Made by a program: the position numbers and the translations under genes
The notes under the pieces: generated by a model
What the model was told of the DNA's origin: nothing
Seen by the model: the letters and a program-made list of their open reading frames with translations, nothing else
Databases searched by the model: none
DNA from: Pseudonocardia sp. SCN 73-27
GTDB lineage: Bacteria > Actinomycetota > Actinomycetes > Mycobacteriales > Pseudonocardiaceae
Length of the DNA: 64,000 nt
Direction: 5' to 3'
Assembly: GCA_001725415.1 (NCBI GenBank)
Contig: MEGH01000024.1
Coordinates: 1-64,000 of the forward strand
Part shown: one piece after another, positions 3,317-19,588 of the stretch
How the letters are laid out: each line of letters begins with the position of its first letter
Numbering within the stretch: the first letter of the stretch is position 1

Positions 3317-4165
3317 ATGTCTGACGATCAGCGCCGATCTTCCACGCCGGGACCCGGGCTCCAGGTCTCAGTGCTGGGGTCGTTCACCCTGACTCACGAC
3401 GGGGTGGCCGTGGCGCTGGGTGTCGATGCCCGCCGCGTCGTCGCGTACCTCGCCGTGCACCGCCGTCCCCAGCCGCTGGCCACGCTGGCGGCCGACCTGT
3501 GGGCCGGTGTCGGGTCCGACGCGGCCCTGCGGCTGCTCGACGAGGCCGTCGCCGACGTCGACGTACCCGGGCTCCTCGTCGTCGACACCCTCGCCGGCAC
3601 GGTCGTCCTCGACTCGCTGGTGTCGGTCGACCTCGACGAGGCCATGGCCCTGGTCCGGCTCATCCCCGAGGTCGCGGCCCACGAGGTCGCCGACATCACG
3701 CTCCTGCGCGCCGACGTGCTGCCCTCGTGGACGGCGCCGTGGATCGCGGTCGAGCGGGAGCGTTTCCGCCAGCTTCGCCTCAACGCGCTCGAGGACCTCA
3801 GCCTGCGCCTCAGCGCCGCGGGCGACCACGAGCAGGCCGTCGCGCTGGCCCGCATCGCCGTCACGGCCGCGCCGAGCCGCGAGAACGCCCGCCGCGCCCT
3901 CATCGAGGCCCACCTCGCCCAGGGCGACCTGGCCGCGGCCGTCGCCGAGTACGACGACTACCAGGAGCTGTTGCGCTCCAGCGTCGGTGGGCCCGTCGGT
4001 TCGGGTCTCGACGTGCTGTTCCCGCCGTCGCCGGCGTGGCCGGTCGTCCGGGGTTTCCGCCCGACGGCGCCCCGCTCGGCAGTCGCCCTGCCGGGTCTGC
4101 GGGCCGTCCGCACCCCGGGCTCGCGCCGGCTCGTCGCCGGTGGCTCGATCCCGTCGGGTCGCTGA
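3317..4165 (+). CDS. BTAD (SARP-like) transcriptional regulator
   Basis: The 282-residue protein has a winged-helix DNA-binding domain (residues about 15-95; LQVSVLGSFTL, VVAYLAVHRRPQ) followed by a bacterial transcriptional-activation (BTAD) helical-repeat domain at about 105-235 (LRLNALEDLSLRLSAAGDHE, AVALARIAV). The last 45 residues are basic and disordered-looking. ATG at 3317 has a good ribosome site (GGGGA at 3307-3311). It lies 178 bp after the MEDS-HATPase gene, so it is probably a separate unit. SARP-family proteins activate secondary-metabolism operons, but no such cluster is nearby and the target is unknown. Confidence 0.8.
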   Translation: MSDDQRRSSTPGPGLQVSVLGSFTLTHDGVAVALGVDARRVVAYLAVHRRPQPLATLAADLWAGVGSDAALRLLDEAVADVDVPGLLVVDTLAGTVVLDSLVSVDLDEAMALVRLIPEVAAHEVADITLLRADVLPSWTAPWIAVERERFRQLRLNALEDLSLRLSAAGDHEQAVALARIAVTAAPSRENARRALIEAHLAQGDLAAAVAEYDDYQELLRSSVGGPVGSGLDVLFPPSPAWPVVRGFRPTAPRSAVALPGLRAVRTPGSRRLVAGGSIPSGR

Positions 4166-8648: not shown

Positions 8649-11015
8649 TCAGCGGTGCTGCAGGCGCTTGAGCATCCGCGGCAGCTCCCCCGCGTGCGCG
8701 ACCGTCAACCGCTGCGTGGCCCGGGTCAGCGCCACGTAGAGGTCGTTGGCGCCGCGCGGCGACTCGGACAGCACCTCGCCGGGCTCGACGAGCAGCACCG
8801 AGTCGAACTCCAGGCCCTTCGACGCGGTGATCGTCAGCACCACGACGGGCGCGTCGAGATCCGCGGCCTCGGGGTCGGCCACGGCCGCCACCGTGTCCGG
8901 GACCAGCGCGGCCCGCAGCGCCTCGACCCGCGCGGCCGGCGCCAGCACGACGACCCTGCCTTCGCCGACGGCTTCCCGCTCCTGGGCGACCAGATCGGCC
9001 AGCACGCCGTCGGTACCGTCGAGGGAGCCCGCGGCGATCCGCACCGCCCGCGGCGGCACCCCGGTGCTGCGCACCGATCGCGGTGGGGCCAGCGACGGCT
9101 CGATCTCGGCGAGCACGTCGTCGGCGATGTCGGCGATCTCGGCGGGCGTGCGGTAGTTGACCGTCAGCTGCTCCAGCCGCCACCGCTTCGCGACGAACGG
9201 CCCCAGCACCTCGTCCCACGACCGCGCACCCGACCGGTCCCCGGTCTGCGCGATGTCGCCGACGATCGTCATCGACCGGCTCGGCACCCGGCGCATCACC
9301 AGCCGCCACGCCATCGCCGACAGCTCCTGCGCCTCGTCGATGATCACGTGCCCGTAGGTCCACTCACGGTCGGCCTCGGCGCGGTCGGCCGTCGTGTCGT
9401 AGCGACGCACCTGCTGGCGCTCGGCCAGCCGGTCGGCGTCGACGATGTCGGTGGCGCGCAACAACTCCGGGTCGAGGTCCTCCTCGAGGTCGAGGACGTC
9501 GAGCACCCCCTGGGCATACTCGACCTCCTCCCGCAGCGCCGCCGCCGCGGCCGCGGCGGCCGCCGCCCCGTCGTCGCCGAGGAGCTCGGCAGCCTCGTCG
9601 AGCAGCGGCACGTCGGCCGGGGTCCAGCGGTCGTCGGGCTCCACGTCCGCGGCCGCCACAGGCCGGTACAGCAGCTCCCGGTCCTCGGCCCGCAGCCGCC
9701 GGGCAACCGAGTTGAGCCGGCGCCGGTCGGAGAACAGGTCGGTGAGCAGCTGCTCGGCCGACAGCGTCGGCCACAGCGCGTCGAGCTCGCGCGCAAGCTC
9801 GGGGCTCTCCCCCAACTCCTCGCGGATGTCCTCCAGGTCGGCCCGCCCGAGCAGGCCGCGCCCGCCGAGGGTGTTCATGACCTGCTGGGCCAGCAGCCTG
9901 ATCGCCTCGGTGCGGAAGATCCGCTTGGCCTCGTTGTGCGGCTTGCGCGACCGCCGCGCCCGCGTCCGCGCCTGGTTCGCGACATCGCGGTCGAGGCGGA
10001 CCTGCTGCTGCTCCACGACGAGGTGGATGGGCTTGCGCGGCACCTGCTGCCGGTCGCGCACCGCCGCGGCGACGACCGCCGCCATCTCCACGCCGCCCTT
10101 GAGCTGCGCGGCCTCCGGGGCCTCGACGCGGCGGGCGTGCAGGCCCGGGAACAGCCGCGCGACCGTCGCCAGCACGACGCTCGTCTCACCCAGCGACGGC
10201 AGGACCTGCCCGATGTAGCGCAGGAACGTCGGGTTCGGGCCCACGACCAGCACGCCGCGCCGCGCCAGCCGGTCGCGGTGGGTGTAGAGCAGGTACGCCG
10301 CACGGTGCAGCGCCACCGCCGTCTTGCCCGTACCCGGCCCGCCCTGCACCACCAGCACGCCGGACGGCTTCGACCGGATGATGCGGTCCTGCTCGGCCTG
10401 GATCGTCGCGACGATGTCGCCCATGCGTCCGGTGCGCGCCTGCGTCACCGCCGCCATCAGGGCGGCCTCGCTGGTCAGCCCCGACTGGTTCCCCCGCGCC
10501 GCCGCGTCGGCCAGGTCGAGCACCTCGTCGTCGATCGCGACGACCGTGCGCCGCCGCGTCCGCAGGTGCCGGCGCCGCCGCATCCCCTCCGGCGACGCCG
10601 CCGTCGCCGTGTAGAACGGCTGCGCCGCAGGGGCGCGCCAGTCCATCAGCAGCGGCTCGTACTCGTTCTCCTCGTCGAGCAGCCCGAGCCGGCCGACGTA
10701 GCGGACCTCGCCGCCGTCGGCGTCGAGCCGGCCGAAGGCGAGCCCGTGCTCGGCAGCGCGCAGCGCGGCCAACCGGTCGGTGTACATCGCGGCGGCTGCG
10801 TCGCGCTCGGTCAAGGCCTGCGGAGTGCCGACGGTCTCGCCGTGCAGCACGTCGTGCAACCGGCGCGCGGTCTCCACCCGCCGGGCGTCGAGACGCTGGT
10901 AGAGCATCTCCACGTAGTCCCGCTCGTGCGCCAACGCCACGTCGGGATCGGTGTCGGGGATCCCCGGACGGTCCGCGGGAACGGGATCGCTGTCGTGGGA
11001 CACGCTGTTGGACAC
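8649..11015 (-). CDS. helD: HelD, RNA-polymerase-recycling UvrD-like ATPase
   Basis: GTG at 11015 gives a 788-residue protein, near the size of actinobacterial HelD. A coiled-coil N-terminal arm (YVEMLYQRLDARRVETARRL) precedes UvrD-type motor domains: Walker A QGGPGTGKTAVALHRAA (about residue 225), Walker B VIIDEAQELSAM, then GDIAQTGDR, QLTVNYRTPAEIA, TITASKGLEFDSVLLVEP and YVALTRATQRL. HelD removes stalled RNA polymerase from DNA and can displace rifamycins in some actinobacteria. The segment with WRAPAAQPFY is typical of HelD rather than UvrD or PcrA. An eight-alanine run occurs mid-protein. The divergent neighbour is a stress sigma factor. Confidence 0.9.
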   Translation of the reverse strand: MSNSVSHDSDPVPADRPGIPDTDPDVALAHERDYVEMLYQRLDARRVETARRLHDVLHGETVGTPQALTERDAAAAMYTDRLAALRAAEHGLAFGRLDADGGEVRYVGRLGLLDEENEYEPLLMDWRAPAAQPFYTATAASPEGMRRRRHLRTRRRTVVAIDDEVLDLADAAARGNQSGLTSEAALMAAVTQARTGRMGDIVATIQAEQDRIIRSKPSGVLVVQGGPGTGKTAVALHRAAYLLYTHRDRLARRGVLVVGPNPTFLRYIGQVLPSLGETSVVLATVARLFPGLHARRVEAPEAAQLKGGVEMAAVVAAAVRDRQQVPRKPIHLVVEQQQVRLDRDVANQARTRARRSRKPHNEAKRIFRTEAIRLLAQQVMNTLGGRGLLGRADLEDIREELGESPELARELDALWPTLSAEQLLTDLFSDRRRLNSVARRLRAEDRELLYRPVAAADVEPDDRWTPADVPLLDEAAELLGDDGAAAAAAAAAALREEVEYAQGVLDVLDLEEDLDPELLRATDIVDADRLAERQQVRRYDTTADRAEADREWTYGHVIIDEAQELSAMAWRLVMRRVPSRSMTIVGDIAQTGDRSGARSWDEVLGPFVAKRWRLEQLTVNYRTPAEIADIADDVLAEIEPSLAPPRSVRSTGVPPRAVRIAAGSLDGTDGVLADLVAQEREAVGEGRVVVLAPAARVEALRAALVPDTVAAVADPEAADLDAPVVVLTITASKGLEFDSVLLVEPGEVLSESPRGANDLYVALTRATQRLTVAHAGELPRMLKRLQHR

Positions 11016-11105
11016 CAGTGCGACTACCTTCGCGGGCGACGTGACGGATCGCCCGCCGACGTGACACAGCCCGGCCGGGCGACTGTCCAACGTACCAGCG
11101 CACGG

Positions 11106-11186: not shown

Positions 11187-11996
11187 GTGACTGACCGGGC
11201 GTCCCTCGACCCCCCTGCCCCCGACGGGCCCGGGGACGGCGGCACGCGCGACGGCTACGACCACCTCGCCCCCCTCTTCGACGAGCTCGTGCACCTCGGC
11301 GACGGCGACCCGCGCCGCGCCGACCTGCGCGAACGGCTCGTCACCGGCCACCTGCCCGTCGTCGCGCACATCGCGCGCCGGTTCGCGGGCCGCGGCGAGC
11401 CCGTCGACGATCTCGAGCAGGCCGGCACCGTCGGGCTCATCAACGCCGTCGACCGCTTCGATCCCGGCCGCGGTGTCGACTTCCTCTCCTACGCCGTGCC
11501 GACCATCACCGGTGAGGTACGCCGCCACTTCCGGGACCGGACGTGGTCGATGCGGGTGCCGCGCCGGCTCAAGGAGCTGCAGAGCGCCATCAACGGCGCC
11601 GTCGGGGCGCTGGCCCAGGACCTCGGGCGGGCGCCCCGGCCCACCGAGATCGCCGAGCACCTCGACCTGCCCGTCGAGGACGTCATCTCCGGGCTGGAGG
11701 CCCGTCAGGTGTACCGGTCGACGTCGCTCGACGAACTCGTCGCCGGCTCGGAGTCCCAGCTCAGCGACACCCTCGGCGTCGCCGACGCCGAGCTGGAGAA
11801 GGTCGACTACCGCCAGACCCTGGCACCGCTGCTCGACGAGCTCCCCGCCCGGGAACGCACCATCGTCGTGCTGCGGTTCTTCGCGGGCATGACCCAGACC
11901 CAGATCGCCGACGAGGTGGGCATCTCCCAGATGCACGTCTCCCGGCTGCTGGCCCGCACCCTGGCCCGGCTGCGCCGCCGGATGGGCGGCACCTGA
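11187..11996 (+). CDS. RNA polymerase sigma factor, SigB/SigF/SigG family
   Basis: The 269-residue protein contains region 2 (VAHIARRFAGRGEPVDDLEQ, AVDRFDPGRG, FLSYAVPTITGEVRRHFRDR), region 3 (VPRRLKELQSAINGAVG, RPTEIAEHLDLPVEDV) and region 4 with its helix-turn-helix (MTQTQIADEVGISQMHVSRL). The FRDRTWSMRVPRRLKEL block is characteristic of general-stress/sporulation sigma factors controlled by anti-sigma partner switching. GTG at 11187 (VTDRAS) is used; the first 35 residues are variable. No RsbW-like gene is directly upstream, but two such ATPases lie 6-9 kb away, so a functional link is plausible though unproven. Confidence 0.92.
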   Translation: MTDRASLDPPAPDGPGDGGTRDGYDHLAPLFDELVHLGDGDPRRADLRERLVTGHLPVVAHIARRFAGRGEPVDDLEQAGTVGLINAVDRFDPGRGVDFLSYAVPTITGEVRRHFRDRTWSMRVPRRLKELQSAINGAVGALAQDLGRAPRPTEIAEHLDLPVEDVISGLEARQVYRSTSLDELVAGSESQLSDTLGVADAELEKVDYRQTLAPLLDELPARERTIVVLRFFAGMTQTQIADEVGISQMHVSRLLARTLARLRRRMGGT

Positions 11997-12020: not shown

Positions 12021-14381
12021 TCAGCCGGGGTGACGGCGGCGCGGGCCGCGGCCGTGGGGCTGCTCGACGGGCTCGACGGTCGGCACCGGCGGCATGTCCC
12101 GCACCACCGGGGCGTCGGCCAGCGCGAGCGGCTCACCGTGGTGGCGCAGCCGCATCGGCGGGCCGCTGACCAGCCGGTACTCGACCTCGTCGGCGGTCAT
12201 CGTGACCCGCAGCGACCGGCCCTGCCACAGCACCCCGAACGAGATGCGCGGCAACGGGGACGGCAACCGCGGCGCGAAGGAGATGCCGTCGCGGTCGGTG
12301 CGCATCCCGCCGAACCCGGAGGCGACGGCGTTCCAGGTCCCGGCCATCGACGCGATGTGCATACCGTGGTCGGTGTTGCCCGCCAGGTCCCCGAGGTCGA
12401 CGAGCGCGGCCTCGGCGAAGTAGTCGTAGGCCAGGTCGAGGTGCCCGGTCCAGGCCGCGACGACGGCCTGCGTGGCCGCCGACAGCGACGAGTCCCGCAC
12501 CGTGATCGCCTCGTAGTAGGCGAAGTTGCGGGCCATCTGCTCCGGTGTGAACGCGTCCGGCTGCAGCTGCATGGCCAGCACCAGGTCGGCCTGCTTGATC
12601 ACCTGCTTGCGGTACAGGTCGAAGTACGGGTAGTTCAGCAGCAGCGGGTACTTCTTCTCGGGCGTGTTCTCGAAGTCCCAGATCTGGTGGTCGGTGAACC
12701 CCTCTGACTGCGGGTGCACCCCGAGCACCTCGTCGAACGGGATGCGCATGGACGCGGCGGCGTCGCGCCAGCTGGCCATCTCCTCCGCGTTCACCCCGAG
12801 CCGGGACGCGACACGCGGGTTGCGGGCGGCGACGTCGGCGGCGTAGCGCAGGTTCAGCTGCGCCATGAGGTTCGTGTACACGTTGTTGTCGACGATCGCG
12901 GTGTACTCGTCGGGGCCGGTCACGCCGTCGATGCGGAACTGGCCCGCCGAGTCGTGGTGGCCCAGCGAGCGCCACAGCCGGGCCGTCTGCACCAGCAGCT
13001 CGAGGCCGACCTCGCGTTCGAACTCGAGGTCGCCCGTGGCGGCGACGTGGCGGCGGACGGCGTCGGCGATGTCGGCGTTGATGTGGAACGCCGCGGTGCC
13101 TGCGGGCCAGTAGCCGGAGCACTCGTGGCCGCGGATCGTCCGCCACGGGAACGCCGCGCCCGCCAGCCCGAGCTGCTCGGCCCGCTCCATCGCCTGTGGC
13201 AGGATCGAGCGCCGCCAGCGCAGCGCGTCGGCCGCCGCGTCGGGGGCGAGGTGCGACAGCACGGGCAGCGCGAAGGTCTCGGTGTCCCAGAAGGTGTGGC
13301 CGTCGTAGCCGTCACCGGTGAGGCCCTTGGCGCCGATGGCGCGCCGCTCGGCGCGGGCGCCGGCCTGCAGGACGTGGAACACCGCGAGCCGCACGGCCTG
13401 CTGCAGCTCGGCGTCGCCGTCGATCTCGACGTCGGCGGTGATCCAGAACTCGTCGAGGTAGGCGCGCTGCTCGGCGAGCAGCCCCTCCCAGCCGGTGAAC
13501 CGGGCCGCGGCCAGCGCCGCGCGGACCTGGTCGTGCACCGCGGGCAGCGACCGCCGCGACGACCAGCCGTAGGACAGATACTTGACGATCCGCAGGGTCT
13601 CCCCGGGTTTGAGCCGGGCGATCACCGTGGTGCGGCCGATGTCCTCGGTGGCCTCCGACGACGTCTGCGTCGAGTCGGGGCCGTACACCTCGTGGTCCAT
13701 CGCCGCGGCGAGGCGCAGACCCGACTGCCGGGTCTGGTGCACGAGCGTGGCGCCGGCGCTCTCGCTACGGTGCTGCTCGGACACCAGCGGCTCGGCCAGC
13801 GCGGCGTCGACGCGGGGATCGCCGTTGGCGCGCTGCGGGAGCTGCTCGTTGGCGACGAGCTCGGACTGCACGACGAGCGTCGTCGGCGCGTCGACGGCCT
13901 CGACCTCGTAACAGATCGCCGCGATCGCCCGCTGCGTCAGCGACACCAGCCGGGTGCTGCGGACGCGGATCGTCCTGTCGGCGGGCGAGGCCCACTCGAC
14001 CTCACGGGTGAGCGTCCCGGCCTGCAGGTCGAGCACCCGCTCGTGCCGCGACAGGTTGCCGTAGCGCAGGTCGAACGGCTCGTCGTCGACCAGCAGCCGG
14101 ATCAGCTTGCCGTTGGTGACGTTGATGATCGTCTGGCCCGACTCCGGGTAGCCGTAGCCGCCCTCCGCATAGGGCAGCGGCCGCCGCTCGTACAACGAGT
14201 TCAGGTAGGTGCCGGGGATGGCGTGCGGCTCGCCCTCGTCGAGGTTGCCGCGCATGCCGATGTGGCCGTTGGACAGCGCGAACACCGACTCGGTCTGGCC
14301 CATCGCCTCCAGGTGCAGTGCCGGCTCGCGCACGCACCAGGGCTCGACCGTGAACGGCCGTCCGAACTCCGCGGCGGTCAC
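12021..14381 (-). CDS. Glycoside hydrolase family 65 protein (maltose/trehalose-type phosphorylase)
   Basis: At 786 residues it has the full GH65 layout: an N-terminal beta-sandwich ([29 protein letters not shown]), an (alpha/alpha)6 barrel with [12 protein letters not shown] and the presumed catalytic acid Glu in GVTGPDEYT (about residue 492), and a C-terminal beta-sheet domain. GH65 enzymes cleave alpha-disaccharides with inorganic phosphate to beta-glucose-1-phosphate. The GTG start overlaps the stop of the upstream HAD gene by four bases. That gene encodes a beta-phosphoglucomutase-like enzyme, which would convert the product to glucose-6-phosphate. The pair and its order match, from memory, mycobacterial Rv3400-Rv3401. 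Disaccharide specificity cannot be read from sequence. Confidence 0.9.
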
Positions 14382-15151
14382 CGGCCCTCCCCGTCCAGCA
14401 GCTCCGCCAGGTCGTCGACGACGACGGTCGCGCCGTGCTCGCGCAGCGCCGCGGCCTGGTCGAGCCGGTTCACCCCGACGACGGCGACGAACCCACCCGC
14501 GCGGCCCGCCGCGACCCCGGCGAGCGCGTCCTCGAACACGACGGCCTCGCCGACGCCGACCCCGAGGTCGGCCGCAGCGGCCAGGAACGTGTCGGGCGCG
14601 GGCTTGCCGGGCAGCGACCGCTCCTTCGCGGTGACGCCGTCGACCCGGTGGTCGACGTACTGCGCGAGGTCGGAGACCTCCAGGACCTGCTCGGCGTTGG
14701 CCGACGACGACACCACCGCCGTGCTCAGCCCGGCCTCGCGCACCGCCTTCAGGAAGCGCACCGAGCCCGGGTAGACGTCGACACCGTCGGTCTTGATCTT
14801 CTCCTGGACCAGGTCGTTCTTGCGGGTCGACAGGCCCCAGATCGTGTCGGCCGAGGGGCCGTCGTCCGGGCCACCCTGGGGCAGCTCGATCCCGCGGGAG
14901 CGCAGGAACCCGGCCGTGCCCTCCATCCGCGGCCGGCCGTCGACGTACGAGCCGTAGTCGGCCGACAGGTCGAACGGCCGGAACGGCTCACCCGTGCGCT
15001 CCGAGCGGGCGCGCAGGAAGTCGTCGAACATCTGCTTCCACGCCGCGGCGTGGACGCTCGCGGTGTCCGTGAGGACCCCGTCGAGATCGAACAGGCAGGC
15101 GCGCGTGGCGTCCGGCAGACCGAGCATGGCGGCACCGTATCTCTCGATCAT
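14378..15151 (-). CDS. Beta-phosphoglucomutase-family HAD hydrolase
   Basis: The nucleophile motif [19 protein letters not shown], the cap-domain block DGRPRMEG, motif [14 protein letters not shown], motif III lysine in [14 protein letters not shown], and motif [17 protein letters not shown] are all present. This is the beta-phosphoglucomutase/sugar-phosphatase subfamily. ATG at 15151 is chosen; GTG at 15154 or ATG at 15127 are possible, and 15127 would begin four residues before the conserved core. It is translationally coupled to the GH65 gene. The likely role is isomerising beta-glucose-1-phosphate to glucose-6-phosphate; phosphatase activity cannot be excluded. Confidence 0.88.
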
Positions 15152-15199
15152 CACGGTCGCGCGACGGACCGTTGAACACTGCCCGTTCACACAGCGCTC

Positions 15200-16774
15200 C
15201 TAGAGGGTCGCGACGGCGGGGCGGATCGTCCACGTCCGTGCGGTGGCCGTCTCGGTGATCGTGACGACGCAGTGCTCGCCGTCCGCGGCCGCCTCCACGC
15301 TGACCCCGCCGCCCTCGGGGCGCGGTTCCACGACCTCCTGAACGACGGCCCTGACCTGGGCGAGCACCTCCATCGAGGTGACCGGGAGGTCGTCGAGACC
15401 GGGTGCCGACGACACCGCCGCCGTGAGCCGCTTGCCGAAGCGGGCATGTTCGAGCTGGAGGTAGGCGCGCACGGAGTCGAGCTCGTCGCGCAGGGTGATC
15501 GTGTCGTCGGTGGGGCGGTCGGCCGCGCGGGTCAGGTCGGCGAAGCCCAGCAGCAGCTCGCGGGCCCGGCCCGGGTCGGTGCGCACGAGCGATGCGATGG
15601 TGTTCAGCGAGTTGTAGACGAAGTGCTGCTCCAGCCGACGGGCCTGCACCCGCGCGGCCGGCTCCGGGCCCGCAGGCGCGGCGGGCTCGGGGGGCGGCGG
15701 CGCGGTCGCCGGTCCTGCAGGCGCGTCCTCCGGGCCGTCGAGGTCGACCGTCCGCGCCTCGGAGCCGTCACCGGCGTCCCAGCGCTCGTCGTCGGCGAAC
15801 CCGTCGTCCCACAGGCCGTCCTCGACGTCCTCGGGGGCGACGAGACCGCGCCACACCGGCAGCCGCAGCCGCCCGCCGGCCGTCCACTCCGTGAACTCGA
15901 CCTGCCCGACCAGCCGCGGCACGGCCCACCTGGCATCGCGCGCCACGCTGGCGGGCACCCCGCCCGCGAACGCCGAGTCGTCGGTACCCAGGTCGGGCAG
16001 CAGCGCGGTCACCGCCGCGCGCGGGGCGCCCGCACCCAGGCCCACCCGGCCGACGTAGCGCAGCCCCGCCGCGCCCGGGACACCCAGCAGCAACGCGGCC
16101 ACCGTGTCGGGCCGGTCGGGCGACGCCGGCGTCCACCCGCCGACGACGACCTGCCGGGACTGCCGCAGCGGCACGCGCAACCAGTTCCGCGACCGCCGCC
16201 CCGGCTGGTAGGCCGAGTCGAGCCGCTTCGCGTACACGCCGTCGAGTCCGTAGCGCCGTGCCGTGGCCAGCACGTGCCCGGCGTCGCCCGCGGGCCACGA
16301 CGGCGACAGCACGACCGGCTGCTCGGCCAACCCGAGATCGTCGACCAGCTCACGGCGCCGCTGGTAGGGCAGCGCCGTCGTCGGCTCGCCGTCGAGCCAC
16401 AGCAGGTCGCTGACGAAGAAGCCCACCGGCACCTCGGTCACCAGCGACGCGCTCGGCCGCTGCGTCGCCGTGCGGCGCATCAGCAACCGCCTGCTCGGCA
16501 CACCCGCGTCGTCGAGCGCGACGACCGTCCCGTCGAGGATGACCCCGTCGCGCGGGGCCTTGCCCGCCAGCACGTGCAGCTCCGGGAACGCCGAGGTGAC
16601 CGACCGGTCCCGGGCCGTGAGCAGCCGGACACGGCCGGGGCGCGCGTAGGCGATGCAGCGCAGCCCGTCCCACGCGAACTCGACGGCCCATCCCGGGCCG
16701 GTCGGCAGCTCCCCGGTGGCCGCCTGCATCGGCGGCACGAGATCGGGCATCCCGCCCGTGCCGGCCCGGCCCAT
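15200..16774 (-). CDS. Pseudo-ATP-dependent DNA ligase fused to a degenerate LytS-type histidine-kinase module
   Basis: Residues 1-300 follow the LigD-type ligase fold (EFAWDGLRC, ILDGTVVALDD, FFVSDLLWLDGE, GLDGVYAKRLDSAYQPG, VVVGGWTP, QVEFTEWTAGGRLRLP). The nucleophilic lysine of motif I is Ala34, the motif III glutamate is Thr83, motif IV has Asp178 for Glu, and the motif V lysines are Arg200 and Pro202. Adenylation should be impossible. A Pro/Ala-rich linker (about 340-374) leads to a LytS-type DHp segment with His384 (QHFVYNSLNTIASLVRTD, LRDELDSVRAYLQLEHARFG). The following ATPase remnant lacks an N box and G boxes. ATG at 16774 is chosen; the frame is open to 16900. Function unknown, possibly scaffolding or nucleotide/DNA sensing. 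Confidence 0.8.
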   Translation of the reverse strand: MGRAGTGGMPDLVPPMQAATGELPTGPGWAVEFAWDGLRCIAYARPGRVRLLTARDRSVTSAFPELHVLAGKAPRDGVILDGTVVALDDAGVPSRRLLMRRTATQRPSASLVTEVPVGFFVSDLLWLDGEPTTALPYQRRRELVDDLGLAEQPVVLSPSWPAGDAGHVLATARRYGLDGVYAKRLDSAYQPGRRSRNWLRVPLRQSRQVVVGGWTPASPDRPDTVAALLLGVPGAAGLRYVGRVGLGAGAPRAAVTALLPDLGTDDSAFAGGVPASVARDARWAVPRLVGQVEFTEWTAGGRLRLPVWRGLVAPEDVEDGLWDDGFADDERWDAGDGSEARTVDLDGPEDAPAGPATAPPPPEPAAPAGPEPAARVQARRLEQHFVYNSLNTIASLVRTDPGRARELLLGFADLTRAADRPTDDTITLRDELDSVRAYLQLEHARFGKRLTAAVSSAPGLDDLPVTSMEVLAQVRAVVQEVVEPRPEGGGVSVEAAADGEHCVVTITETATARTWTIRPAVATL

Positions 16775-17047: not shown

Positions 17048-19588
17048 ATGACCAGCACCCTCGCCGACCGGCTGCCCTCCCCCGACGACCCCGACGCCCT
17101 CGTCGAGACCTTCGCCGAGTGGGCGTTCGAGGAGCAGGGCCTGTCGCTCTACCCGGCGCAGGAGGAGGCGCTGCTGGAGCTGGTCACGGGCGCCAACGTC
17201 ATCCTGTCGACGCCCACGGGCTCCGGGAAGTCGCTCGTCGCCATCGCCGCACACGCCGTCGCGCTGGCCCGCGGCGAGCGGACGTTCTACACAGCGCCGA
17301 TCAAGGCGCTGGTCAGCGAGAAGTTCTTCGCGCTGTGCGCGGTTTTCGGCGCCGACAAGGTCGGCATGCTGACCGGCGACGCCGCCGTCAACGAGACCGC
17401 GCCGATCATCTGCTGCACCGCCGAGATCCTCGCCAACATCGCGCTGCGCGGCGGTAAGGGCGCCGACGTCGGCTCCGTGATCATGGACGAGTTCCACTTC
17501 TACGCCGACCCCTCGCGCGGCTGGGCGTGGCAGGTCCCGCTGATCGAGCTGCCGCAGGCACAGTTCCTGCTGATGAGCGCCACCCTGGGCGACGTCACGT
17601 TCTTCCGCGACGACCTCACCCGCCGCACCGGACGGCAGACCGCGGTGATCACGTCGGTGGAGCGGCCCGTCCCGCTGAACTACCGCTACGTCCTCACGCC
17701 GCTGCACGAGACGATCGACGAGCTGCTGCAGACCCACGAGGCGCCCGTCTACGTCGTGCACTTCACCCAGCAGGCCGCCGTCGAACGCGCGCAGTCGCTG
17801 ATGAGCGTCAACGTCTCCTCCAAGGAGGACAAGGCCGCCATCGCCGACCTCATCGGCGCGTTCCGGTTCACCGCCGGGTTCGGCAAGACCCTGTCCCGGC
17901 TGGTCCGCCACGGCATCGGCGTCCACCACGCCGGGATGCTGCCGCGCTACCGACGCCTCGTCGAGACGCTCGCACAGGCCGGCCTGCTCAAGGTCATCTG
18001 CGGCACCGACACCCTCGGCGTCGGCATCAACGTCCCCATCCGGACGGTGCTGTTCACCGCGCTCACCAAGTACGACGGTGTGCGCGTGCGCGGCCTGAAG
18101 GCCCGCGAGTTCCACCAGATCGCCGGCCGCGCCGGCCGGGCCGGCTACGACACCGTCGGCACCGTCGTCGCGGAGGCGCCCGACCACGAGGTCGAGAACG
18201 CACGGCTGCTCGCCCGCGCCGGCGACGACGCCAAGAAGCGCAAGCGGATCGTCCGCAAGCAGCCGCCGGAGGGTTTCGTCGGCTGGAGCGAGAAGAGCTT
18301 CGAACGCCTCCAGACCGCCCAGCCCGAGGCGCTCACCAGCCACTTCGTGGTCACGCACTCGATGCTGCTCAACGTCGTCTCCCGCCCGGGCGACGCCTTC
18401 GCCGCCATGCGGCACCTGCTCGAGGACAACCACGAGCCCCGCGACCGGCAGCGCAAGCACATCCTGCGCGCCATCGCGATCTACCGGGCCCTGCGCGACT
18501 CCGGCGTCGTCGAGGAGCTGCCGTCGCCCGACGCCGAGGGGCGTCGTGTCCGCGTCGTCGGCGACCTCCAGCTCGACTTCGCCCTCAACCAGCCGTTGTC
18601 CCCCTTCGCCCTCGCCGCCGTCGAGCTCCTCGACCGGGAGTCCCCCACCTACGCCCTCGACGTCCTCTCCACCATCGAGGCCACCCTCGACGACCCCCGC
18701 CAGGTCCTGTACGCGCAGGAGAACAAGGCGCGCGGCGACGCCGTCCAGAAGATGAAGGCCGACGGCATCGAGTACGAGGAGCGCATGACGCTGCTCGAGG
18801 ACGTCACCTACCCCAAGCCTCTGGCCGAGAGCCTCGACGCGGCGCTCGAGACCTACCGCCGCGGCCACCCCTGGGTCGCCGACGCCCGGCTCTCCCCCAA
18901 GTCCGTCGTGCGCGACATGTCCGAGCGGTCGATGACGTTCGTCGAGTACGTCGGCTTCTACCAGCTCGCCCGCTCCGAGGGCCTTGTCCTGCGCTACCTC
19001 GCCGACGCCTACCGCGCGCTGCGCCAGACCGTCCCCGACGAGGCCAAGACCGAGGAGCTCACAGACCTCGTCGAATGGCTCGGCGAGCTCGTCCGCCAGG
19101 TCGACTCCAGCCTCCTCGACGAGTGGGAGGCCCTCGCCGCGGGCGCCGGGGCCGGCGACGAACCCACACCGCCGTCGCTGGACCAGGGCCCGGCCGGTGT
19201 CACCCGCAACGTCCGGGCCTTCCGGGTCCTGGTGCGCAACGCGCTGTTCCGCCGCGTCGAGCTCGCCGCCCTGCGGCGCTGGGACCTGCTCGGCGAGCTC
19301 GACAAGGACGCCGGCTGGGACGCCGCCGCCTGGCAGGAGGCGTTCGCCCCGTACTGGGACCTGCACGACGACATCGGCACCGGCCCCGACGCCCGGGGGC
19401 CCAAGCTGGTGACGATCGAGGCCGAGCCGGAGCGCTGGCGCGTCCGCCAGGTCCTCGACGACCCCGCGGGCGACCGCGACTGGGCCATCACGGCCGAGGT
19501 CGACCTCGCGGCCTCCGACGAGGCCGGCGAGGCCGTCGTCTGGGTCACCGGCGTCTCCGACGCGACGGACTGGGCGCTCCCCTCGTAG
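17048..19588 (+). CDS. Ski2-like DEAD/DEAH-box helicase with C-terminal DUF3516 domain
   Basis: The 846-residue protein begins with superfamily-2 motifs: STPTGSGKSLVAIAAHAVAL (Walker A about 55-62), TAPIKALVSEKFF, GDAAVNETAPIICCTAEIL, DEFH (147-150), LLMSATLGD, then GVHHAGMLPRYRRLVE, GTDTLGVGINVPIRTVLF and QIAGRAGRAGYD. The C-terminal half (from about 400) is the actinobacterial DUF3516 extension. It probably remodels RNA or ribonucleoprotein; the substrate is unknown. ATG at 17048 follows the only 272-bp divergent spacer here, which it shares with the pseudo-ligase/kinase gene. I see no clear promoter or hairpin in that spacer. Confidence 0.88.
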   Translation: MTSTLADRLPSPDDPDALVETFAEWAFEEQGLSLYPAQEEALLELVTGANVILSTPTGSGKSLVAIAAHAVALARGERTFYTAPIKALVSEKFFALCAVFGADKVGMLTGDAAVNETAPIICCTAEILANIALRGGKGADVGSVIMDEFHFYADPSRGWAWQVPLIELPQAQFLLMSATLGDVTFFRDDLTRRTGRQTAVITSVERPVPLNYRYVLTPLHETIDELLQTHEAPVYVVHFTQQAAVERAQSLMSVNVSSKEDKAAIADLIGAFRFTAGFGKTLSRLVRHGIGVHHAGMLPRYRRLVETLAQAGLLKVICGTDTLGVGINVPIRTVLFTALTKYDGVRVRGLKAREFHQIAGRAGRAGYDTVGTVVAEAPDHEVENARLLARAGDDAKKRKRIVRKQPPEGFVGWSEKSFERLQTAQPEALTSHFVVTHSMLLNVVSRPGDAFAAMRHLLEDNHEPRDRQRKHILRAIAIYRALRDSGVVEELPSPDAEGRRVRVVGDLQLDFALNQPLSPFALAAVELLDRESPTYALDVLSTIEATLDDPRQVLYAQENKARGDAVQKMKADGIEYEERMTLLEDVTYPKPLAESLDAALETYRRGHPWVADARLSPKSVVRDMSERSMTFVEYVGFYQLARSEGLVLRYLADAYRALRQTVPDEAKTEELTDLVEWLGELVRQVDSSLLDEWEALAAGAGAGDEPTPPSLDQGPAGVTRNVRAFRVLVRNALFRRVELAALRRWDLLGELDKDAGWDAAAWQEAFAPYWDLHDDIGTGPDARGPKLVTIEAEPERWRVRQVLDDPAGDRDWAITAEVDLAASDEAGEAVVWVTGVSDATDWALPS

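Follow-up and report, generated by a model that had tools for sequence, protein, structure and literature searches.

A catalytically dead DNA ligase domain fused to a LytS-type histidine kinase module in Pseudonocardia and related genera

What role can a protein have that combines the folds of a DNA ligase and of a LytS-type histidine kinase and has lost catalytic residues of both? This question is raised by a gene of Pseudonocardia sp. SCN 73-27, a member of a group of soil bacteria; we studied the gene in a window of 64,000 nucleotides (contig MEGH01000024.1, positions 1 to 64,000). The gene is a single open frame that starts with an ATG at 16774 (Table 1). The original prediction was that this frame of 524 residues joins a complete LigD-type ligase fold to a LytS-type segment. 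Both the open frame and Pfam confirm this layout. When the halves are considered separately, Pfam finds DNA_ligase_A_M at residues 27–200 (E 9e-20) and DNA_ligase_A_C at 223–311 (2e-14) in the first, and His_kinase (PF06580) at 380–450 in the second (7e-16, 58.7 bits against a cut-off of 25.2). The ligase-family test also found both the nucleotidyltransferase (NTase) and the OB fold in the window protein. We compared the modelled residues 2–333 to solved structures, and the fold of this part matches solved DNA ligases, in line with the structure prediction that had been proposed as a check; the kinase part is described from its sequence and the predicted model.

The kinase part contains His384 and, as had been claimed, no ATP-binding boxes: the Pfam scan gave no HATPase match (PF02518) in the window protein at E 1. 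In one homologue (L073), a weak partial match to PF02518 was found (profile positions 9–50, E 0.064). The sensor of a LytS-type histidine kinase is usually a membrane or GAF domain. Pfam detected no GAF domain in the window protein or in the scanned proteins from other genera, and found ligase domains instead. The anti-phage defence models of PADLOC, compared to three proteins at E 0.01, gave zero matches.

Table 1. Features of the fusion gene and its neighbours in the window.
Feature	Positions	Strand	Evidence
Whole gene, pseudo-ligase/LytS fusion, 524 aa	15200..16774	-	Open frame; conservation in relatives
Ligase nucleotidyltransferase domain, residues 27–200, catalytic residues lost	16175..16696	-	PF01068; fold match to solved DNA ligases
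Ala34 codon, in place of the ligase nucleophile Lys481	16673..16675	-	Alignment; Lys in 0/68 fusions
Ligase OB-fold domain, residues 223–311	15842..16108	-	PF04679
Linker, residues 316–375, mostly disordered in the model	15650..15829	-	pLDDT <50 at 325–359 and 364–378; raised dN/dS
LytS-type dimerisation/His segment, residues 380–450, with His384	15425..15637	-	PF06580; His in 68/68
Remnant of the HATPase first half, about residues 456–510, without N-, G1- and G2-boxes	15245..15409	-	Comparison with L049–L051 and other genera
DEAD-box helicase with DUF3516, divergent neighbour	17048..19588	+	Near the gene in 13/17 loci
HAD hydrolase, downstream, co-directional	14378..15190	-	13/17 loci
Glycoside hydrolase family 65 (GH65), downstream, co-directional	12021..14381	-	13/17 loci and one end fragment

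Ligase residues were numbered by alignment to the LigD ligase domain of M. tuberculosis (1VS0), counted from Lys481, and their roles were taken from a LigD review (PMC8656161). As described there, Lys481 is the nucleophile, Glu613 binds the metal, Lys618 contacts adenine, and Glu479, Arg486 and Arg629 make contacts to adenine, ribose and gamma-phosphate. In the window protein, Lys481 is replaced by Ala34, Glu530 by Thr83, Glu613 by Asp178 and Lys635/Lys637 by Arg200/Pro202, and Arg501 is lost as well (Ala54). The predicted loss of four catalytic positions thus holds for Ala34, Thr83, Asp178 and Arg200. Pro202, which had been counted among these losses, is not diagnostic, and we rejected it as proof of lost catalysis because, of 26 other ligases whose nucleophile is intact, 8 also have proline at this position.

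We then compared 68 full fusions to 26 other ligase domains (stand-alone ligases, own paralogues and Rhodococcus LigD); outside the 68 are L114 and L116, which duplicate L092 and L096, as well as four fusions cut by contig ends (L058, L065, L066 and L072). Lys481, Arg501 and Glu530 are found in none of the 68 fusions and in all 26 other ligases. By contrast, Glu479, Arg486 and Arg629 (Glu32, Arg39 and Arg194 in the window protein) are kept in 68/68. Thus, the covalent chemistry has been lost and a part of the pocket has been kept. Since the same three residues are equally invariant in the 26 active ligases, their retention may be explained by the fold alone. The metal-binding Glu613 of motif IV is kept in 8/68 fusions, and Lys618 is an arginine in 24 of the 50 fusions of the Pseudonocardia main clade. 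The kinase histidine is kept in all 68.

The same fusion was found in related genomes, as had been predicted for a maintained protein. Among 59 other Pseudonocardia genomes, both halves are present in 52 and the gene is cut by contig ends in four (G006, G024, G029 and G033); three draft genomes (G021, G028 and G057) gave weaker matches only and no fusion. Among the best 80 of 571 named relatives, the closest named copy is that of P. sulfidoxydans (91% identity), and two-domain matches came from Pseudonocardia and Actinomycetospora only. In the family sample, the fusion was seen in 43 of 249 genomes and in 4 of 46 genera, namely in 16 Pseudonocardia genomes, 15/15 of genus g68 (Actinomycetospora), 10/11 of genus g29 and 2/2 of genus g63. 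Genus g68 was recognised as Actinomycetospora by L114 and L116, which come from that genus and encode the same proteins as L092 and L096. The 16 include two genomes (G002 and G017) that looked ligase-only in the first search and for which both halves were established by a separate search. Outside the family, the matches listed for the order sample (397 genomes) cover the ligase part only and, among those listed for the phylum sample (296 genomes), only the window's own copy passed the strict threshold of E 1e-110; as copies with long linkers look ligase-only in such searches, this absence and the 4 of 46 genera describe what was seen and are not proof.

We reconstructed a tree of the ligase part with a quick method without bootstrap (53 rows, rooted on Rhodococcus LigD). 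In this tree, the fusions form one clade (SH-aLRT 99) that lies among stand-alone ligases whose nucleophile is intact. The placement of a eucalypti-like group has a support of 27, and two sequences (L003 and L005) were flagged as long branches. The fusion family appears lineage-specific and, judged by the tree of the ligase half alone, has a single origin.

The kinase half differs between genera. Of 27 copies in other genera, 15 proteins were examined, and each of these has the patterns of the N-, G1- and G2-boxes. In the Pseudonocardia main clade (n=50), the N- and G2-boxes are present in none and a G1-like pattern in three (L020, L033 and L074); in the eucalypti-like group (n=3), the N-box was found in one, the G1-box in none and the G2-box in two. 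The median length from the histidine to the end of the protein is 143 residues in the main clade compared to 195 in other genera. At E 0.001, HATPase_c was detected in 6/6 scanned proteins from other genera, five of them above the cut-off, and in 1 of 36 within Pseudonocardia. We compared the LytS half of two fusions (L090 and L102) to ordinary LytS kinases from 13 loci; identity is 47–60% for 12 of them, among which one protein occurs twice, and 38–43% for L203. The PDB relative 6SWJ aligns over the entire HATPase of L102. Judged by these patterns, the kinase half of the sister genera still looks complete, and the engine appears to have been lost in the Pseudonocardia main clade.

The simplest scenario is that the fusion formed and ligase chemistry was lost first, while the kinase stayed intact, and that the ATPase disappeared later, inside Pseudonocardia. 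As three sister genera have a complete kinase half, the Pseudonocardia protein would be a secondarily reduced sensor kinase and not a fusion that arose as a scaffold. Of the binding or scaffold role that was originally suggested, the first part stands, as retention of the ligase fold and the LytS module without catalysis points to binding or sensing; the part that is not supported is a primary scaffold.

We next describe the genes around the fusion, using 17 named loci with wide flanks for the counts in Table 1. The gene is divergent from the DUF3516 helicase, as had been noted before. Neither the helicase nor the HAD and GH65 genes were found at two Actinomycetospora loci and in P. eucalypti. 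In two eucalypti-like genomes, G010 (L236, C36) and G012 (L237, C1), GH65 and the DUF3516 helicase flank an interval without a match to the fusion or HAD. As this interval occurs without the fusion, the sugar-enzyme neighbours may be incidental, and we consider it doubtful that they are functional partners. The interval in G010 and G012 contains homologues of the window's MEDS-STAS (1163–2191) and BTAD (3317–4165) genes, and the fusion lies elsewhere in these genomes. The first of these window genes (+ strand) encodes a protein with MEDS sensory and STAS domains. The window further contains a UvrD-type helicase (8652–11102, -) and, divergent from it, a sigma-70 factor (11187–11993, +) in which regions 2, 3 and 4 are present. 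Between 14000 and 17300, we found no promoter-like sites and two terminator-like sites, both inside genes, compared to 0.5 in shuffled sequences. Rfam and tRNA searches gave no matches within the window.

The ligase half is of the LigD type, which acts in non-homologous end joining (NHEJ). The position of Ku genes relative to the fusion was also recorded. In genus g29, Ku is located directly upstream and in the same direction, and the two matches are <0.4 kb apart in all 10 genomes with the fusion. In one of these loci (L195), 7 bases separate the Ku stop from a TTG, the earliest possible start of the fusion, and 22 bases separate it from the first ATG. The eleventh g29 genome, the draft G232, matched neither Ku nor the fusion. 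Of the two g63 genomes, G168 has Ku next to the fusion in convergent orientation, and G135 has it on other contigs. In Actinomycetospora, Ku is found 8–14 kb away in 14/15 genomes, and in the remaining one the contig stops short of this distance. This proximity may be plain synteny, as unrelated genes lie between Ku and the fusion in the one Actinomycetospora interval that was read in part (L193). In Pseudonocardia, Ku is near the fusion in 0/7 genomes in which Ku was located (there it is distant or lies on different contigs), and no Ku was found in the flanks of the Pseudonocardia fusion loci examined; in the window genome, Ku sits on other contigs. In a Ku tree, the Ku of g29 is on a different branch from the fusion-near Ku of G168 and Actinomycetospora, which hints at, but does not prove, more than one origin of the link.

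The window genome has other ligases that look active, as judged by the motif I sequence KWDG in L004 and in a small LigD-type ligase (C11:140930-142136) that is divergent from a Ku gene. The same genome also encodes a LigD with phosphoesterase and primase-polymerase domains (C15, L007:775-2691) and, between these, a second degenerate ligase domain without the lysine of motif I (PF01068 19.4 bits, below the cut-off).

No LytTR gene was found near the fusion in five genomes (G000, G012, G140, G168 and G101), and no response regulator is adjacent to it at the loci examined. In G140 and G101, there is a single LytTR match each, which is located at most 5 kb from an ordinary LytS kinase. Because the sole LytTR match of these two genomes lies near their ordinary LytS kinase, cross-talk with such a LytS/LytTR pair would be the simplest putative output route.

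LytS kinases work as dimers, and the sensor in front of the kinase sets its activity. The fusion probably senses or binds something that is tied to DNA breaks or nucleotides. Our preferred reading, whose chances we regard as evenly balanced, is that it is a LytS-type kinase whose sensor is a pseudo-ligase and which has been reduced in Pseudonocardia to a dimeric double pseudo-enzyme. A stand-alone LigD-type ligase gene would have been joined in front of the half of an ordinary actinobacterial LytS kinase that comprises the dimerisation and ATPase segments, with the ligase replacing the kinase's own sensor. Ligase chemistry would then have been given up in all examined members, with the fold and the three pocket residues kept. 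The pseudo-ligase may bind a ligand that it does not process; candidates are nucleotides, nicked or broken DNA ends and complexes of Ku with DNA. In LigD, according to PMC8656161, the OB lobe swings over the NTase pocket; in the fusion, opening and closing of the two lobes could be relayed via the linker to the four-helix dimer of the LytS segment. In Actinomycetospora and the two other genera, this dimer would switch the autophosphorylation of the histidine. The Pseudonocardia main clade no longer has the ATPase, so that the dimer could act only in trans. It might serve as a dimeric adaptor, or it might pair with and tune a normal LytS kinase, which histidine pseudo-kinases are able to do. 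Several observations count against this reading: Ku does not lie near the fusion in Pseudonocardia, no LytTR gene accompanies it in five genomes, the invariant pocket residues may be explained by the fold, Lys618 is often replaced in the main clade and, beyond the two closest copies, the whole fusion has 46–54% identity compared to 70–87% for its neighbours at the same loci.

The loss of catalytic residues from both halves in Pseudonocardia could also mean that the gene is a chance fusion that decays under relaxed selection. We estimated dN/dS for all six pairwise comparisons among the four nearest copies. It is 0.08–0.21 in the ligase part and 0.08–0.20 in residues 376–455, compared to 0.15–0.87 in the linker and 0.22–0.77 in the C-terminal remnant; in a comparison of one pair, the neighbouring helicase has a dN/dS of 0.10 and GH65 of 0.05. 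Thus, both folded parts are maintained by purifying selection, and the linker and the remnant drift. This fast evolution of the linker and remnant would fit decay. One g29 copy in a draft genome (G198:C92:917-2350) contains an in-frame TGA, which might also be taken as a sign of decay. However, no internal stop was found among the listed same-genus fusion matches, and neither relaxed selection nor disrupted frames, named beforehand as signs of decay, were borne out, with a dN/dS of about 0.1–0.2 in both domains. Together with the presence of both halves in 52 of 59 genomes, the four cut copies and the spread over four genera, this makes decay very improbable, and we rejected it on the counts of distribution, selection and residue conservation.

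More specific functions can be proposed. The fusion could be a histidine kinase that senses DNA breaks: a dead NHEJ ligase, whose gene lies with that of Ku, would recognise DNA ends, or such ends bound by Ku, and control the LytS kinase. In Pseudonocardia, this protein would later have become a kinase-less adaptor. We put this forward tentatively and consider it rather unlikely in this specific form. On the other hand, the LytS segment might be a mere dimeriser, so that paired pseudo-ligase lobes hold two DNA ends or Ku rings without any signalling. Such a structural accessory of end joining would fit the Ku gene directly upstream in g29 and the main clade, where the ligase fold and the dimerisation segment are still under selection without ATP boxes. 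Inactive human ligase IV still promotes repair, as reported in PMC9638927. A pure dimeriser, however, has no need of the ATP-box patterns seen in all 15 proteins from other genera, and no Ku link is seen in Pseudonocardia, so this role is doubtful. A sensor unrelated to DNA appears clearly unlikely; in that case, the pocket would recognise a nucleotide such as ATP or NAD and report the energy state to the LytS part. The invariant equivalents of Glu479, Arg486 and Arg629 would agree with such a sensor, and the HAD and GH65 sugar enzymes that follow the gene in 13/17 loci hint at metabolism. Yet Arg501 and Glu530 are gone, as is the metal ligand in most fusions, and the GH65–helicase interval without the fusion in G010 and G012 suggests that these neighbours may be incidental.

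Living relatives contain a graded series of intact ligase, dead ligase with intact kinase, and dead ligase with gutted kinase, in which each step is testable. If the reading as a kinase with a pseudo-ligase sensor is correct, such a natural and conserved case would reveal a path by which enzymes turn into receptors, and it could connect end joining in bacteria with signalling. A kinase that senses DNA breaks, if true, would be a dedicated signalling branch for bacterial end joining.

No description of a dead ligase joined to a histidine kinase was found in the literature searched, from which bioRxiv and the majority of subscription journals are absent. The folds of both halves are known; what had no counterpart in this literature is their combination, in which a naturally inactivated DNA ligase occupies the place of a histidine kinase's sensor. 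Compared to the LigD ligase domain of M. tuberculosis (1VS0) and to stand-alone ligases of the LigD/LigC type, the fusion lacks Lys481, Arg501 and Glu530 (68/68) and has gained a LytS module. With the actinobacterial LytS-type kinases (L207 of the same genome and the solved 6SWJ) it shares the H-box segment and, in other genera, a complete HATPase. It differs from ordinary LytS kinases in that its sensor is a dead ligase, no LytTR lies beside it and the ATP boxes are lost in the main clade. Signalling through a kinase scaffold without kinase function is likewise described for DivL of Caulobacter and for a pseudokinase version of ChrS of Corynebacterium (PMC9491836). Those proteins belong to other kinase families with other sensors, whereas in the fusion the sensor is also a dead enzyme. 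Finally, DNA ligase IV is an example of a dead ligase that can support repair. The inactive form was studied in human cells (PMC9638927), whereas the loss of catalysis in the fusion is natural and fixed in a clade.
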